The translations under genes were made by a program, and so were the position numbers. The notes beneath the pieces were generated by a model. The model was given only the letters and a program-made list of their open reading frames with translations. It was not told the DNA's origin and did no database searches. Below are positions 1,165 to 39,994 of a DNA stretch of 64,000 bases, in pieces. The stretch spans positions 62,001-126,000 of the forward strand of contig CALJJQ010000066.1 of assembly GCA_937973965.1 (NCBI GenBank), written 5' to 3'. The stretch's first letter is position 1. The number at the start of each line of letters is the position of its first letter. The DNA is from an uncultured Calothrix sp. (GTDB lineage Bacteria; Cyanobacteriota; Cyanobacteriia; Cyanobacteriales; Nostocaceae).

Positions 1165-2853
1165 ATGGCAATCTCTGATAGTATTGAGGAACCCCAGCTG
1201 TTGCGCTTAAATCGCTGGTTGAGTGGATTGCGGGGCGATTTAACGGGGGGATTAACCGCAGCAGTAGTGGCATTACCTTTGGCTCTAGCCTTTGCGGTGG
1301 CTAGTGGTGTGGAACCAAAGGCAGGACTTTATACTGCAATTGTGGCGGGAATTATTGCAGCAATTTTTGGTGGTTCCCCAGTGCAGATTACCGGACCGAC
1401 AGGTGCAATGGCGGTAGTGCTGGTGGGAATTGTTGCTAAATATGGGATTGAAAAGGTTTGGATTGCTGGGGTAATGGCTGGAATTATCCAGGTAGCCTTG
1501 GGTGTTGCTAAACTGGGACGGTTAGTTAAATTTATTCCCTATCCGGTGACAGCTGGTTTCACCAATGGGATTGCGGTAATTATCTTTTGTGGTCAGTTAA
1601 ATAATTTCTTTGGCTTACAGCTACCGCGTAGTGAGCATTTTTTACCTGGATTGTGGCAAACTTTAACTCATGTAGAAGCCTTAAATTGGGGAGCTGTAGG
1701 GTTAGCAACGGTAGTTATTTTGACCAAGGTCTTTTGGCCGAAAATTAATCGGACAGTACCCGGTTCCCTAGTGGGTTTGGTATTAGCAACCAGTATCGCC
1801 ACCTATTTTCATCTAGATGTACCAACAATTGGTAGTATTCCCCAATCTTTACCCATACCTCAAGGTATCCCTCACTGGAATGATTTTCGCTTAATTCGGG
1901 AACTGATTAATCCCGCTTTAGCCTTAGCAGCATTGGGAAGCATTGAATCCTTACTTTCTGCTGTAGTCGCTGACGGGATGACCGTAAGTGAGAAACATAA
2001 TAGCGATCGCGAATTAATTGGTCAGGGCATTGCCAATATAATTGTACCATTTTTTGGTGGTATTCCGGCTACGGGTGCGATCGCGCGGACTGCTGTGAAT
2101 GTGCGTTCTGGTGGTAAAACTAGATTATCTGGGGTAATTCATGGTATTGCTTTAGCCCTGATTGTTTTAGCTTTAGCACCTTTAGCAGCACAGATTCCTC
2201 TAGCTGCATTGGCTGGGATTTTGATGGTGGTGAGTGTACGAATGATTGAGTGGGAAGCGATTGGTTTGTTGGTACGTGCGACCTACTCGGATTTTGCGGT
2301 GATGATTTTGACTTGGCTGGTGACGATTCTGTTTGATTTAGTCTTAGCTGTGGAAGTGGGATTAGTTGCAGCAGGGGTATTGTTTATCAAACGGATGAGT
2401 GATTTAAGTCTGGCAAAAATACCGGAAACGGAAGTATTCCCCCCTGGTACTCCTTTAGAATTAAGTAAGGAAATTGCGGTTTATCGGGTAGATGGTCCGG
2501 TATTTTTTGGTGCTGTGGAAAGGTTTGTCACTTTTCTGCGTGATGAACCAGAAGTGAAATATTTAATTTTACGGATGCGATTTGTGCCGAATATGGATAC
2601 AACTGGATTGGTCGCTTTAGAAGATATTTACCACGATTTAAAACGCCATGACTGTCGCTTAATTTTGACAGGTTTACAACCAGCAGTGAGGCAAATATTA
2701 GAACGTTCCGGATTATTAGAAAAAATAGGCTTGTCGAATTGTTTTGAAACCACTACAGATGCAATTTGTTCCATTAGCCCTCAGATTGCCGGATGTTCCC
2801 AAACTGGAGCAGATGACTTGAAAACGAAGGAATTGATGGAATTAAATGGTTGA
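1165..2853 (+). CDS. SulP-family inorganic anion transporter with STAS domain
   Basis: A 562-residue membrane protein. Residues about 20-430 form the hydrophobic transporter core with the SulP signatures 'GGLTAAVVALPLALAFAVASG' and 'QITGPTGAMAVV'. Residues about 440-545 form a cytoplasmic STAS domain (IAVYRVDGPVFFGAVERF ... DTTGLVALEDI). The length matches SulP/BicA-type permeases, which carry sulfate or bicarbonate in cyanobacteria; the sequence alone does not settle the substrate. It is not a close match to BicA as I remember it. An SD-like GGAG lies 13 nt before the ATG. It is cotranscribed with the ArsR gene by spacing, and a strong hairpin follows the stop. Confidence 0.88.
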   Translation: MAISDSIEEPQLLRLNRWLSGLRGDLTGGLTAAVVALPLALAFAVASGVEPKAGLYTAIVAGIIAAIFGGSPVQITGPTGAMAVVLVGIVAKYGIEKVWIAGVMAGIIQVALGVAKLGRLVKFIPYPVTAGFTNGIAVIIFCGQLNNFFGLQLPRSEHFLPGLWQTLTHVEALNWGAVGLATVVILTKVFWPKINRTVPGSLVGLVLATSIATYFHLDVPTIGSIPQSLPIPQGIPHWNDFRLIRELINPALALAALGSIESLLSAVVADGMTVSEKHNSDRELIGQGIANIIVPFFGGIPATGAIARTAVNVRSGGKTRLSGVIHGIALALIVLALAPLAAQIPLAALAGILMVVSVRMIEWEAIGLLVRATYSDFAVMILTWLVTILFDLVLAVEVGLVAAGVLFIKRMSDLSLAKIPETEVFPPGTPLELSKEIAVYRVDGPVFFGAVERFVTFLRDEPEVKYLILRMRFVPNMDTTGLVALEDIYHDLKRHDCRLILTGLQPAVRQILERSGLLEKIGLSNCFETTTDAICSISPQIAGCSQTGADDLKTKELMELNG

Positions 2854-2883
2854 TAATCTGAAAAATATCTAGTTGATCTCAAG

Positions 2884-2922
2884 GGGTTTGTTGACAGTCA
2901 AAGTTTAATAATCAACAAACCC
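2884..2922 (+). terminator. Perfect 11-bp hairpin downstream of the SulP gene
   Basis: GGGTTTGTTGA and TCAACAAACCC form an 11-bp perfect stem with a 17-nt loop, 31 bp after the SulP stop codon. No U-tract follows, so it may be an RNA 3'-end stabiliser rather than a classical intrinsic terminator. Confidence 0.5.
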
Positions 2923-3034
2923 ATCAAATCCCTCAAAAATAAGTGGTGAAAATAACCTCTTAATCAGATTATCTGAACAGCTAAATATTATCTGATATCT
3001 TGTACCTTGAGAGATATCAAAATAAATCTAACTA

Positions 3035-3261
3035 AACGTGAGTTCGATGCATCATAAAGTCTGAAACTTTTGTCTAGCAATATTCGTGTCAAATAAAAGT
3101 TTTTAAAAATCTCCTGGTATACTGAAAATAAAATTAGTAAACAAGGAATTGGCAGTGATTGACTTTGTTCTCAACTAAACTTCGAGGTTAGTTTGAACCT
3201 GAATGTCCAAAATCTTGGATTCACAAGGATTATAGAGCTTAAAGTCCGTCGAATTCACGTT
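3035..3261. mobile_element. MITE copy 2 (227 bp, intact, 5-bp target duplication)
   Basis: Ends are AACGTGAGTTCGA and TCGAATTCACGTT, which are 13-bp terminal inverted repeats matching at 12 of 13 positions. The element is flanked on both sides by AACTA (3030-3034 and 3262-3266), a direct target-site duplication. The whole length matches, in reverse orientation, the copy at 18457-18814, apart from a 127-bp insertion in that copy. There is no ORF, so this is a non-autonomous element mobilised in trans. Confidence 0.85.
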
Positions 3262-3317
3262 AACTAGGTATCCTCAAACTTTTTGACTCAGCTATCTTCC
3301 GCTAGGGATTGTCAATC

Positions 3318-3433
3318 GGGAGCATCCCAAATACGTAAATTATCTTTTTTGCCTCTCGAACGTGCTTCCGATAAATTAGGGAGCTTTCCGGCTCACAATA
3401 AAAATTGTATTTTTGCAAAATTGGGATGCTCCC
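3318..3433. repeat. 116-bp inverted-repeat element (GGGAGCATCCCAA ends)
   Basis: GGGAGCATCCCAA at 3318-3330 is exactly mirrored by TTGGGATGCTCCC at 3421-3433. The interior holds a second small hairpin (GAGC..GCTC near 3381-3394). No coding potential is convincing: the 97-aa ORF across it is made largely of the repeat. It looks like a MITE or long hairpin repeat. I see no clear target duplication and no second copy in this window. Confidence 0.65.
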
Positions 3434-3572
3434 TTGTAAATCCGTGTCTAACAGGTAAAGTCTCTGAAAATGGACTACAAATAAAACATCAATTTGGAGA
3501 GTTATTTATTCCGAAAAAAAGAATCAAAAATGAATATTTATGCATTTACTTTTCAGGTGCAAGATTTAAGCT

Positions 3573-3989
3573 ATGAAAAATATTTTATTTGTGGAAAATG
3601 ACAGGATTTATCGTCATATTTTCAGTGATTTTTTGAGAAATAATTATTACCATGTAATTGAAGCAAAAAATAACTTTGTGGGTATGCATTTAGCTCAAGA
3701 ACAGTACCCAGATTTAATTATTTACTCGTTAGAAATGGTGGAGGAAATTGGTTATCAAAACTTTCATTATATGTACAAAAGTTTGATAGATAGCCAATTA
3801 CCTTTAATCTTCTTAACAGACAAACAAGATACATGTTTTTCTGGGAAAAAAGTCAGACAAGTTGGTAGTAGTATCTTACTCCAAAAAACGGTAGGATTTA
3901 AGATGATTTTGCTGGAAATTCAAGTTCAATTAGAAAAAAATAGATGTCGAAAATTTCTACATTCAATACTCGATGATATCGCCGAATAA
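3573..3989 (+). CDS. Degenerate response-regulator receiver protein
   Basis: A 138-residue stand-alone receiver-fold protein (MKNILFVENDRIYRHIF). The acidic pocket partly survives (E8, D10) and a lysine stands at the expected place (ILLQKTV). The phosphoacceptor position is Ser52 in 'PDLIIYSLEM', where active receivers have Asp, so phosphorylation as in normal two-component signalling is unlikely. It is followed after 33 bp by a Tat-exported carbonic-anhydrase-like gene on the same strand. No partner kinase adjoins it. A signalling pseudo-receiver is the best description. Confidence 0.65.
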   Translation: MKNILFVENDRIYRHIFSDFLRNNYYHVIEAKNNFVGMHLAQEQYPDLIIYSLEMVEEIGYQNFHYMYKSLIDSQLPLIFLTDKQDTCFSGKKVRQVGSSILLQKTVGFKMILLEIQVQLEKNRCRKFLHSILDDIAE

Positions 3990-10970: not shown

Positions 10971-11702
10971 TTAACAGAATGGTTTTTGCAAAATATCTGG
11001 GTAATGATTTCTCCAGAAATTAAGAATATTTTTACCAGTTTTTTCTGGATAGAAAAAATGAAAAAAATGATTGCCAGATTCACATTGCCAAAAAATATCC
11101 CCCGATTTGAGAATTTTTAACCAATTACCTAATTCTGCATCTGTCAAAATAGCATCATTTTGACTACTACACACCATTAAAGGTACATCCACATTACCCG
11201 GTGCTAAATTCATGGTTTTGTACAAAGAATGATGGGAGGGTGCATGATCTAAATCCATATCTAAAGATATAATCAAGGAGTTGAGGGAATAGTCTTTAAT
11301 TTGATTACCAAATAACGTTTGAGCAGTATGGATTAAAGCTCGCTCCCTACTAATATTTAAAAGATGTCTTTTATTGTAGTAATAAACATGCCAAGTATAA
11401 CCAGGTTGGTAAGCTACTGATAACAAAGTTAATGTCTGAACTCGTTGCGGATAAGAGCGTGCAAATAATAGTGCGATCGCGCCATTAATTCCATGACCAA
11501 TGAGATGAAATTTATGATTGCTTGATTTGATAAAATCATACAATAAGACAACTGCTTTTTCGATACAACTACCTTCATCTAAACCTTGTTTATACTCCCA
11601 AATACCGATGCGAACGGAATTAGATAAGTAGTTAATCAGAGGTAAATCAAAACGTTTCAGACTCGGATTTGTACTCAACCATAACACATCAAAAGCTACC
11701 AT
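10971..11702 (-). CDS. Alpha/beta-hydrolase-fold protein lacking the nucleophile Ser
   Basis: A 243-residue protein. The nucleophile elbow reads 'HLIGHGINGAIAL' (residues 67-78), so the usual Ser of GHSxG is Gly71. The acid (SSQNDAI) and histidine (ESGNHFFHFF) regions of the fold remain recognisable. Located 44 bp upstream of the PepSY gene on the same strand, it is likely part of the iron-siderophore operon, where a hydrolase might open ferri-siderophores. With Ser missing, a binding or non-esterase role is more plausible. No signal peptide is seen, so it is cytoplasmic. Confidence 0.7.
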   Translation of the reverse strand: MVAFDVLWLSTNPSLKRFDLPLINYLSNSVRIGIWEYKQGLDEGSCIEKAVVLLYDFIKSSNHKFHLIGHGINGAIALLFARSYPQRVQTLTLLSVAYQPGYTWHVYYYNKRHLLNISRERALIHTAQTLFGNQIKDYSLNSLIISLDMDLDHAPSHHSLYKTMNLAPGNVDVPLMVCSSQNDAILTDAELGNWLKILKSGDIFWQCESGNHFFHFFYPEKTGKNILNFWRNHYPDILQKPFC

Positions 11703-17055: not shown

Positions 17056-18132
17056 TTAATTTTCTTCAGGCAAAAAATAATCATCTGGAATGGGATAATC
17101 AAAAAGTTGTCGATTAATGGCTTGAGTGGTGGCAATTCCGGAATATATGGCATTTTCAATCAAGCTTTCCGTGGAGGGATGACACCAATCCCCGCATAAT
17201 ACTAAAGGTGCTGGAGATGAGGTTGCTAAACAAGTATCGCAGATGTGTTGGGTGGGAAATGCATATCGCCATCGGTGGATTTGTGTCCATTCAGGGGTTT
17301 GTAGCCAATATAATTGGGTAGCTTGGACAGATTGGTTGAGAATTAGGGGGATTGCGGTTTGTAAATCGTCTGTATCGAGATAGGTATGGGCAAATTTTGG
17401 ACTCGTTTGTATACAGAAACAAGGTTGTTCGGGTTGGTGACGTTTGCTGCTATCAAAGCCAATCCATCCAAGAACTTCGTCTGCAAGAAAAGTGAAGGCA
17501 TTCCAAACAGGTAAAGGTGATGATGAAGCAGAATATCCAGCCATTAAGCTCAGACAAGGATGATATTCAATACTATTAACCAGCTCTAGCAAAGATGGAT
17601 CAATTAGGGATGGGGGAATTGTTTTTAACAGGATTGTAGCTTGGGGTGCAGGAATAGCAATAACGAGAGATTTTGCGGTGATAGTATCGTCATCCTCAAG
17701 AAAAATTTGCCAATTACCATTATTAATCGAGAGGGAAATCGCCCGTTTTTGGAAGAGAATTTCCAAAGAGGTAGCTAGAAATTTGGCGATCGCACTCATT
17801 CCAGTTTTGGCAATATACTGGTGATTAAATGGGGATTTGTAAATCTCTGCACCAACGTGGTTAGTTTGCCAGTATTCCCCTTCCCAACCATGTAGGACAT
17901 CTTGAGTAATTAAGGTTTTTAAAAACCTTTGACCAACTTCTCCCTTGGGTTTAAAGTAACAAGCACCGTGATCAACCCGAATCGAATCGCTAATTCGTCG
18001 TGTTGCGACTCGACCTCCCACACCCCGTGATTTTTCGACAACAACCACACTATAGCCCAAATCCCGCAACATGCGTGCAGAGCTGAGACCAGACATTCCT
18101 GCACCAATGATAGCGGTATCCCAGATTTTCAT
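17056..18132 (-). CDS. FAD-dependent amine-oxidase/renalase-like oxidoreductase
   Basis: A 358-residue flavoprotein. The dinucleotide-binding motif is at the N-terminus (AIIGAGMSGLSSARMLRDLG, residues 7-26), followed by 'VVEKSRGVGGRVATRR', the arginine-rich second motif of the renalase/amine oxidase family, and 'VDHGACYF'. The C-terminal FAD contact is 'LCGDWCHPSTESLIENAIYSG'. The substrate is unknown; this cyanobacterial subgroup is generally annotated NAD(P)/FAD-dependent oxidoreductase. It is monocistronic in appearance. Confidence 0.85.
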   Translation of the reverse strand: MKIWDTAIIGAGMSGLSSARMLRDLGYSVVVVEKSRGVGGRVATRRISDSIRVDHGACYFKPKGEVGQRFLKTLITQDVLHGWEGEYWQTNHVGAEIYKSPFNHQYIAKTGMSAIAKFLATSLEILFQKRAISLSINNGNWQIFLEDDDTITAKSLVIAIPAPQATILLKTIPPSLIDPSLLELVNSIEYHPCLSLMAGYSASSSPLPVWNAFTFLADEVLGWIGFDSSKRHQPEQPCFCIQTSPKFAHTYLDTDDLQTAIPLILNQSVQATQLYWLQTPEWTQIHRWRYAFPTQHICDTCLATSSPAPLVLCGDWCHPSTESLIENAIYSGIATTQAINRQLFDYPIPDDYFLPEEN

Positions 18133-18456
18133 AGATTACACCCTAAATAGGATTTTAGATTAGTCTGCGAGAAGGTCTTGTTATATATGGGATTATAAAT
18201 GTTACGCCTAAATTAAATCAATGTGACAGTTCTACTGAAAGTGTGCTTTTTGCTAAATCCCGATATATAAGTTTTAACTGTCGCATTTTTTCATACTGGT
18301 ATTATTTCAAGCTTGCTGAAAAATAATCAAACTTTTATTTTGTGAATTTTTCAGGTTATTTTTGTCGAAAAAAAGTGCAAGTGAATGGGGATATATGGAT
18401 ATATAAAGCTTCGAAACCTTGCTGAATTTTTTTTGGGTTTGTGAAAAGTGTAAATA

Positions 18457-18814
18457 AACGTGAATTCGACGGACTTTAAACTCTATAATTTTTGTGAATC
18501 AAAGACTTTGTCAGTTCAGGTTCAAAGTCAGCTTCTCAGTTTTCGTTGAGAGCAAAGTCAATAACTGCCGATTCCCAGTTGACTGATTTTATTCTCAGTA
18601 AGTAGGTGAGTGCAAATAAACCAAACTATGTATTAGAGTACGAGTTTGAGTAAAAATGCTTATTTAGCTTGAGTTTGAGCCTCTTTACAGAACTAAACAT
18701 AGTTATGTTTTTTAACGCCGACTTACTTAGATGAGGGGGTTTTTAAAAACTTTTATTGGACACGAATATTGCTGGACAAGAGTTTCAGACTTTGTGATTC
18801 ATCGAACTTACGTT
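18457..18814. mobile_element. MITE copy 1 (358 bp) interrupted by a second element
   Basis: Ends AACGTGAATTCGA and TCGAACTTACGTT are inverted repeats (11 of 13 positions), flanked by AAATA on both sides (18452-18456 and 18815-18819), a 5-bp target duplication. The sequence aligns over its full length with the inverted copy at 3035-3261, except for 18601-18729, which is absent from that copy. Confidence 0.85.
18601..18727. mobile_element. 127-bp element nested inside MITE copy 1
   Basis: It begins AGTAGGTGAG and ends GCCGACTTACT, giving imperfect inverted ends (AGTAGGT / AGTAAGT). It is bracketed by TA (18599-18600) and TA (18728-18729), while the uninterrupted MITE copy has a single TA-containing site there. 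TA duplication is typical of IS630/Tc1-mariner transposition. Confidence 0.65.
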
Positions 18815-18900
18815 AAATAAAGGGTTAAAATTGTTAAGAGTTCCTGTTTTCTGCCCTATCCACACTCAAGGATTTTTACGCAACACCCTACTCCTGTCTC

Positions 18901-20661
18901 CTAATCATACGAACGTGGTGTATACACCCACACTCCCCCATCATTGCGAGGAATAGTTTTCGTTCGACTAGAACCGACAATAATTACTGTTCCCATATCC
19001 ACCTGTTCCGGATTTAACTCTGCGAGGGTTTGAATAATCACTTCTTCTTTGCTGCGAGTCAGATTTTTTCCCAGAATTACTGGGGTATGGGAGTGACGAT
19101 ACCGGAGTAAAATTTCTTGAGCTTGGACTAATTGTTGTTTACGGGTTTTCGACACCGGATTATAGAAGGCAATCACAAAATCGGCAGCAGCAGCAGCTTC
19201 AATCCGTTGAGCAATAATTGACCAAGGTTTTAGGATATCCGACAGGGAAATCACGCAAAAATCATGACCAATGGGTGCGCCAACTTTTGCTGCTGCGGTT
19301 TGCACTGCGGAAATACCCGGTGCAACTTCAATTTCCACCGTTGACCAAGCTGGATTTTGGTCTGTGTCGATGACTTCAAAAACGGCTGTAGCCATTGCGT
19401 AAATACCGGGGTCTCCAGAGGAAACAAGGACAACATTTTTACCTGTGACTGCAAGGTTAAGGGCAAATCTAGCTCGATCTAATTCTTGGCGGTTATCGGA
19501 ATCATGGCGGGTTTGTCCAGGTAATAAGGGTTCTACTAAATTTAAGTAGGTTGTATATCCCACTAAATCGGTGGCATTGGTCAAAGCGGTTTGCACTTGG
19601 GGAGACATATTCATTTTATCACCAGGTCCGGTACCAACTATGGTCAATTTTCCCCGTGGTTGTCCGTATTCTTGGGGATGGATAATTTTCGTGCTAATAG
19701 CTGCTAGACAGGTGATTTCCGGAGTGGAGATAATTGGAATCACCTCAGAGGTGGATGTTTTCAGGACTTCGGCAACGATTGTGGTAGCATTAACCATGGC
19801 ATTTTCCCGAAATTCATGGTGGAGAAACCGTAGGGGACGATTTAATTTGTTGGCAATTTCAATGATACTGGGATTTGCACCATCAGTCAGGGGACAAAAA
19901 ATTCCGGCGATCGCACTAATTGCCAAGTTGTGTTCAGCTAAGGTTGTGAGGATAATTTCTTGATCGATTTTGAGGTGGTTGGTTGCAAAATTTTGACCAT
20001 GATGAGTGGCGATGACTAAAATAATTTTTTGGGGATGGTATACTAAACAATCAGGACTAGGTTGGATATTTTTTTCCGTGACTTGAATAGTTAAATTCCC
20101 ATTGGTCACGATTGGCAATTTACTTTCGTATAACCACGGTGCATCCCCTGTTAAGTTGAGTGTATGACCCGCAATTAAATTGGCAATAAATCCTTTAGCA
20201 TCCTCTGGGTTGGCTAAAACATAGCCAGAAGGAGGATTTAACAAGGTGGTGCGAAAACGAATATCCCCCGTAGTTGTAATCCCTGGGGAAATTTCTAAGC
20301 GACTAGCAATAATTCTGGCTAAATCATTCACCCCATGTAAACCACCGAGTAAGGGAACTACCGCACTACCATCCTCAGCTACCGCAATCACAGGGGGTTC
20401 TAAATATTTATTATTCAGTAAACTTGCCAAAGTCCGAATTAAAATTCCTGCTGCACAAATACCAATTATTGGTGTTCCAACTGTAAATAATTCCCGTAAA
20501 GTTGGGCCAAATTCCTCATAAAAAACATCTGCATCGGTCACCCTAGTTGATAATCCATAAATTTGACCGCCTGGTAAATCTTGAATAATCTTTCTGGCTA
20601 AGGGAACACTAGTTTGAGTTAGCACAATTACCACAGGTGATGGTAGCAGAGAGAGATTCAT
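18901..20661 (-). CDS. cobJ: CbiG-CobJ fusion: precorrin-3B C17-methyltransferase
   Basis: A 586-residue bifunctional cobalamin-pathway enzyme. Residues 1-330 are CbiG-like (cobalt-precorrin-5A hydrolase family; 'GICAAGILIRTLASLL', 'PPVIAVAEDGSAVVPLLGGLHG', 'GVNDLARIIA'). Residues about 340-586 are the CobJ/CbiH SAM-dependent methyltransferase (KLTIVGTGPGDKMNMSPQ ... VSSGDPGIYAMA ... FYNPVSKTR), which methylates C17 and drives ring contraction of the corrin precursor. The fusion is common in cyanobacteria. No cobalamin riboswitch is visible upstream. A methyltransferase gene lies 65 bp upstream on the same strand. Confidence 0.93.
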   Translation of the reverse strand: MNLSLLPSPVVIVLTQTSVPLARKIIQDLPGGQIYGLSTRVTDADVFYEEFGPTLRELFTVGTPIIGICAAGILIRTLASLLNNKYLEPPVIAVAEDGSAVVPLLGGLHGVNDLARIIASRLEISPGITTTGDIRFRTTLLNPPSGYVLANPEDAKGFIANLIAGHTLNLTGDAPWLYESKLPIVTNGNLTIQVTEKNIQPSPDCLVYHPQKIILVIATHHGQNFATNHLKIDQEIILTTLAEHNLAISAIAGIFCPLTDGANPSIIEIANKLNRPLRFLHHEFRENAMVNATTIVAEVLKTSTSEVIPIISTPEITCLAAISTKIIHPQEYGQPRGKLTIVGTGPGDKMNMSPQVQTALTNATDLVGYTTYLNLVEPLLPGQTRHDSDNRQELDRARFALNLAVTGKNVVLVSSGDPGIYAMATAVFEVIDTDQNPAWSTVEIEVAPGISAVQTAAAKVGAPIGHDFCVISLSDILKPWSIIAQRIEAAAAADFVIAFYNPVSKTRKQQLVQAQEILLRYRHSHTPVILGKNLTRSKEEVIIQTLAELNPEQVDMGTVIIVGSSRTKTIPRNDGGVWVYTPRSYD

Positions 20662-39439: not shown

Positions 39440-39757
39440 ATGACTCAAACCTACACGGTAGAAATTAACCATCAAGGTCAAAGTTTAACAATCCAAGTTC
39501 CGGAAAATGAAACCATTTTATCGGTAGCGGAAAAACAAGGCTTGGAATTACCTGCATCTTGTCATGCTGGAGTTTGTACTACCTGTGCAGCAAAAATTAC
39601 CAATGGTGGTACTGTTGACCAAAGTGAAGGGATGGGTGTTAGTCCGGATTTGCAAGCAGAAGGCTATGTATTATTATGCGTTGCCTATCCCCGTTCCGAT
39701 TTGAAAATTATTACTGACCAGGAAGAAATCGTTTATCAAAAACAGTTTGGTAAGTAG
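39440..39757 (+). CDS. Plant-type [2Fe-2S] ferredoxin
   Basis: A 105-residue electron carrier. The cluster ligands are C41-x4-C46-x2-C49 (ASCHAGVCTTCAAKI) and C80 (YVLLCVAYP). Length is slightly above photosynthetic PetF (about 98), with a C-terminal extension (IVYQKQFGK), so it may be a minor ferredoxin isoform rather than the main photosystem I acceptor. The gene is divergent from acnB. No SD is evident before the ATG. Confidence 0.9.
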   Translation: MTQTYTVEINHQGQSLTIQVPENETILSVAEKQGLELPASCHAGVCTTCAAKITNGGTVDQSEGMGVSPDLQAEGYVLLCVAYPRSDLKIITDQEEIVYQKQFGK

Positions 39758-39789
39758 GTGGGTGGTAAAAATTGTCGTGGAAATCAGGG

Positions 39790-39817
39790 AGTACAGACGC
39801 GATATATCGCGTCTGTA
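39790..39817. repeat. 28-bp perfect palindrome, GACGCG family
   Basis: GTACAGACGCGATA followed directly by its reverse complement. It lies 33 bp after the ferredoxin stop, again in a terminator-like position. Confidence 0.8.
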
Positions 39818-39994
39818 CGGGAGTAAGGCTTTGAGACGAATGAACGGTTGCGTTACGGTTTTATGTTTAATTGCACCGACCTACTTAAATAGTTCAGAGG
39901 AGACAGGAGATAGGAGGAGTACTCTGGTGTTGAATCTTAATTCTTCTTAAATCTTGAATCTTGTGGGAAAGACCAATCCAATGGCTTATTTCCA

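Follow-up and report, generated by a model that had tools for sequence, protein, structure and literature searches.

The question at this locus is whether a short repeated element of Calothrix was entered by a second mobile element, and whether the arrangement dates the two families against each other. In the window, that is, the whole stretch of 64,000 nucleotides that was analysed, one copy of the repeat (MITE-1) is interrupted by 127 bp (MITE-2), and another copy is not. Our reading, to which we give a probability of roughly 95%, is that a non-autonomous IS630-type MITE (127 bp, TA target) entered a TA within a single copy of another MITE family, which is ~229 bp long and leaves 5-bp AT-rich duplications. 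The features are collected in Table 1.

Table 1. Positions in the window of the interrupted MITE-1 copy, its insert and its uninterrupted sibling
Feature	Position	Strand	Remarks
MITE-1, interrupted copy	18457-18814		358 bp with insert, 229 bp without
MITE-1, left target duplication AAATA	18452-18456		Read from the sequence
MITE-1, right target duplication AAATA	18815-18819		Read from the sequence
MITE-1, left part, first TA included	18457-18600	+	Aligns with other copies, query 1-144
MITE-1, left terminal inverted repeat AACGTGAATTCGA	18457-18469	+	Ends conserved genome-wide
MITE-1, right part, end TCGAACTTACGTT	18730-18814	+	Aligns with other copies, query 278-358
TA left of MITE-2	18599-18600		Single TA here in empty copies of the closest MITE-1 subfamily
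MITE-2, 127 bp, non-coding, putative IS630-type MITE	18601-18727	+	Ends TAAGTAGGTGAGTGC... / TAAGTAAGTCGGCGT..., TA counted in
TA right of MITE-2	18728-18729		Other side of the duplication
MITE-1, uninterrupted sibling	3035-3261	-	227 bp; AACTA at 3030-3034 and 3262-3266

The host element and its surroundings

The composite is intergenic, between an amine-oxidase-like gene (17056-18132, minus strand) and a CbiG/CobJ-type, tetrapyrrole-methylase gene (18901-20661, minus strand). In Calothrix sp. NIES-3974, MITE-1 is missing from the corresponding locus, where ~190 bp of unrelated DNA lie between the flanking matches. This lack of resemblance, together with a short tandem repeat (ATATATGAATCAGACGCG) that fills the NIES-3974 intergenic region, left the precise MITE-1 pre-insertion site unreadable there.

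The initial annotation had described the host as a MITE with 13-bp inverted ends and an AAATA target duplication. The duplication was found intact on both sides, and the ends, AACGTGAATTCGA and AACGTAAGTTCGA, proved to be imperfect repeats with 11 of 13 positions matching. Genome-wide, ends of the MITE-1 type gave 33 + 34 matches vs 2 + 1 for the control. In the fetched loci, an exact 5-bp duplication flanked 37 of the 80 distinct MITE-1 end pairs, as compared with 0-7 at other lengths. With its inverted ends, target duplication of constant length and many copies, MITE-1 fits the description of a MITE. It belongs to a group with AACGTGARTTCGAYG-like ends in common, within which several different interiors occur.

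The 127 bp are an insertion, not a part lost elsewhere

The stretch bounded by TA on each side is, as had been claimed, absent from the sibling copy in the window, which shows 84.6% identity to the host. As an empty-site control, the sibling indeed has no insert, but its site, CAGTATACC, holds two adjacent TAs and is thus slightly ambiguous. Copies of the same subfamily showed a clean single TA, CAGTAGAC. The junction of the closest subfamily reads ATTCTCAG-TA-GACCAGGAGG, that of the window copy CTCAG-TA-(127 bp)-TA-GATGAGGGGG, and empty copies typically have one CAG-TA-GA site. We extracted 36 distinct insert-free junctions, 31 of them from the genome itself.

The search of the own genome covered 5.4 Mb in 165 contigs. 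Among the matches listed, the 358-bp query was aligned end to end at the window locus only, and most other copies matched query positions 1-144 and ~278-358 as adjacent pieces. At least about 30 insert-free copies, the sibling included, were present besides the interrupted one. In Calothrix sp. NIES-3974, a member of the same genus, we counted at least about 35-40 MITE-1 copies, mostly near full length and uninterrupted, and the full-length 127-bp element was not found there among the matches listed. The opposite picture, with the 127 bp in all other MITE-1 copies, had been named in advance as the one that would overturn the insertion; it is the short form that prevails in both genomes. Given these short-form copies, the 127 bp are an insertion rather than an ancestral part, and the short form of MITE-1 is ancestral. 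Were the 358-bp form ancestral instead, the ~228-bp form would be a precise internal deletion derivative. The single long copy is all that favours this view, which has to face both the number of short copies in two genomes and the fact that the 127 bp have inverted ends of their own and are found alone at three other loci. We consider it next to impossible.

The insert is a mobile element of its own

MITE-2 ends in imperfect inverted repeats of 33 bp that are 73% complementary. A search for the same element at other sites of the genome, as had been advised, recovered three other copies (131-134 bp, 87-92% identity, E down to 3.6e-48) on contigs C56, C95 and C6, in unrelated DNA, each beside a TA and none within MITE-1. 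The dispersal of MITE-2 thus amounts to 4 close copies, or to 151 sites by the wider pattern of TAAGTARGTNNGYGC-like ends (at most one mismatch), vs 17 sites for the reversed control pattern. TA stands on both sides of the insert and only once at this place in the closest subfamily's empty MITE-1 copies, as a TA target duplication would have it. An exact 31-bp MITE-2 end had no match in the named genome collection. Elsewhere in the window (39751-39887), we noticed a second member of the family with TAAGTAGGT ends, 137 bp long.

Could the 127-bp segment be chance or low-complexity sequence and not a mobile element? The single-strand fold of the window copy, no stronger than that of shuffled sequences (z -1.1), would suit this view. 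Yet the three further TA-bounded copies, the 33-bp inverted ends and the IS630 relatives with matching ends (see below) argue against it, leaving it a negligible probability. For the window copy, strong folding as a hallmark of MITE-2 was rejected on the same z value, though one of the other copies does fold well (z -3.0). MITE-1 and MITE-2 are separate families, in agreement with the initial annotation, which had proposed two different mobile families and an insertion at TA.

IS630 elements share the ends of MITE-2

Members of the IS630 family (IS630/Tc1-mariner) duplicate a TA target. The ends of MITE-2 are shared with transposase-coding IS630 elements on Nostoc and Oscillatoria plasmids. 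One, on a plasmid of Oscillatoria acuminata PCC 6304, is 1189 bp long, has MITE-2-type ends and carries an annotated IS630 transposase, which matched NCBIfam NF033545 with 162.9 bits (cut-off 100; E 1.1e-47) and also PF13358. The other, on a plasmid of Nostoc sp. UHCC 0302, is 1175 bp long, with ends of the same type and an annotated IS630 transposase whose gene is apparently split by a frameshift.

In the own genome, only three matches to the Oscillatoria transposase were obtained: on C139 a degraded copy interrupted by stops, on C78 a terminal piece, and on C5 another piece. This last one lies within a 381-bp deletion relic of an IS630 element (C5:125061-125441), which is bordered on either side by TAAGTA-type ends and keeps the start and end of the gene. 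An intact IS630 transposase was not found in the assembly, where one might still escape notice because contigs break at repeats. Four contigs (C27, C49, C69 and C98) end inside a similar transposase gene, suggesting an assembly-collapsed IS.

Based on its own copies, its TAAGTA-type ends and the plasmid IS630 elements with matching ends, MITE-2 is, as far as sequence can tell, best described as an IS630-type MITE. We also observed an apparent parallel nesting on plasmid2 of Calothrix brevissima NIES-22. There, a 1303-bp element (fetched locus 2501-3803), which has ends of the TAAGTA type and pieces annotated as transposase, appears to enclose a MITE of 129 bp (3155-3283) that belongs to this end family.

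The search for a transposase with matching ends, advised at the outset, succeeded in part: for MITE-2 it led to plasmid IS630 elements and, in the own genome, to remnants only, and for MITE-1 it led to none. An autonomous MITE-1 partner, sought as AACGTGARTTCGA ends with 5-bp duplications at IS-like distances, was not found in the fetched loci of the own genome or near DDE_Tnp_1 matches. Nor was a transposase-coding element with MITE-1 ends present in 40 loci drawn from four related genomes, NIES-3974 among them, and the MITE-1 family is therefore left without a name. It seems rather doubtful that MITE-1, with its AACGTGARTTCGAYG ends, its 5-bp duplication, often AANNN, and its several interiors, needs a transposase family whose same-ended members remain unrecognised.

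What the nesting dates

From the nesting it follows that this MITE-1 copy was already in existence when the insert entered it. This had been claimed before and stands, at least about 30 copies in the own genome and at least about 40 in NIES-3974 being without the insert. The further claim of a relative date for the two mobile families was too strong. One nested copy dates itself: it orders two events in one copy only and does not order the MITE-1 and MITE-2 families. Divergence is about equal and gives no clear gap between host and insert: the host is 93.9% identical to the consensus of a 12-copy subfamily, and for the insert, against a consensus of 4 copies, the value is 93.1%. Both identities are rough, as the 12 copies were picked for their likeness to the host and the insert is itself one of the 4.

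It is even conceivable that the insert is older than the arrival of the MITE at this site, namely if it had entered a donor MITE-1 at another place and the two had since moved here as one unit. An intact AAATA around the composite is expected in that case, and equally if the insert came later. The usual trace of such a move is a second composite copy, and the assembly has one copy only among the matches listed, which makes the move improbable. Both families have relatives elsewhere among the sampled Nostocaceae. The 131-bp MITE-2 subfamily was missing from the matches listed for NIES-3974, where MITE-1 abounds. This fits a later local spread of the subfamily, for the proof of which two genomes are too few.

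Other MITE copies of this genome also hold inserts. A MITE-1 copy on C5 (fetched locus, about 3381-3620) contains a third element, ~240 bp long, whose ends are CATYSGTGAGAGGTTAAG-like and whose 9-bp duplication has one mismatch; this element has diverged relatives at further loci fetched from the own genome. On C135 (fetched locus, about 11127-11241), a MITE-1 copy contains a fourth, short element, which begins with GGACTCATATTTGAT, is flanked by TATA and has copies at 90-93% identity on C6 and C52. A wider-family MITE-2 at C6:54182-54477 holds an unrelated insert. Thus, the window locus is no exception: nesting is common in this genome. MITE-1 within MITE-2 was not seen in the partial sample of loci.

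Proposed course of events and relation to known systems

Starting from the observed nesting, target duplications, empty sites, further copies and shared IS630 ends, we infer which transposase moved MITE-1 or MITE-2, and when. MITE-1 would have been moved by some transposase that leaves 5-bp duplications. MITE-2 would have moved in trans, most likely by an IS630-family transposase recognising TAAGTA(A/G)GT... ends. Such IS630 elements are present on plasmids of other cyanobacteria, but in the own genome only fragments and degraded copies were found.

Trichormus variabilis ATCC 29413 is reportedly the strain in which the MITE Nezha was described. Plasmid A of ATCC 29413 carries a 130-bp element with ends of the MITE-2 kind, and by the likeness of this one element MITE-2 and Nezha possibly form one broad group. 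Nezha is a MITE of cyanobacteria (Zhou et al. 2008, doi 10.1016/j.bbrc.2007.11.038), for the mobilisation of which ISNpu3-like elements have been proposed (PMC3049150). RUP of Streptococcus pneumoniae is an IS630-family MITE with a TIR similar to that of IS630-Spn1 (PMC3049150). MITE-2 resembles IS630-family MITEs such as RUP in its TA duplication, its short non-coding sequence and its ends shared with IS630 elements. It differs from them in its cyanobacterial TAAGTA(A/G)GT... ends and in that an intact IS630 partner was not seen in the draft genome. For the type II MITEs of Anabaena sp. 90, the inverted repeats were not traceable to any IS in that genome (PMC3542288), much as with the repeats of MITE-1 in the loci searched here.

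The nested locus is a fresh instance of a known, ordinary kind, and it leaves existing knowledge of MITEs unchanged. As a clean case of nested insertion with many empty-site controls, it is useful for annotating the MITE families of the Calothrix lineage.
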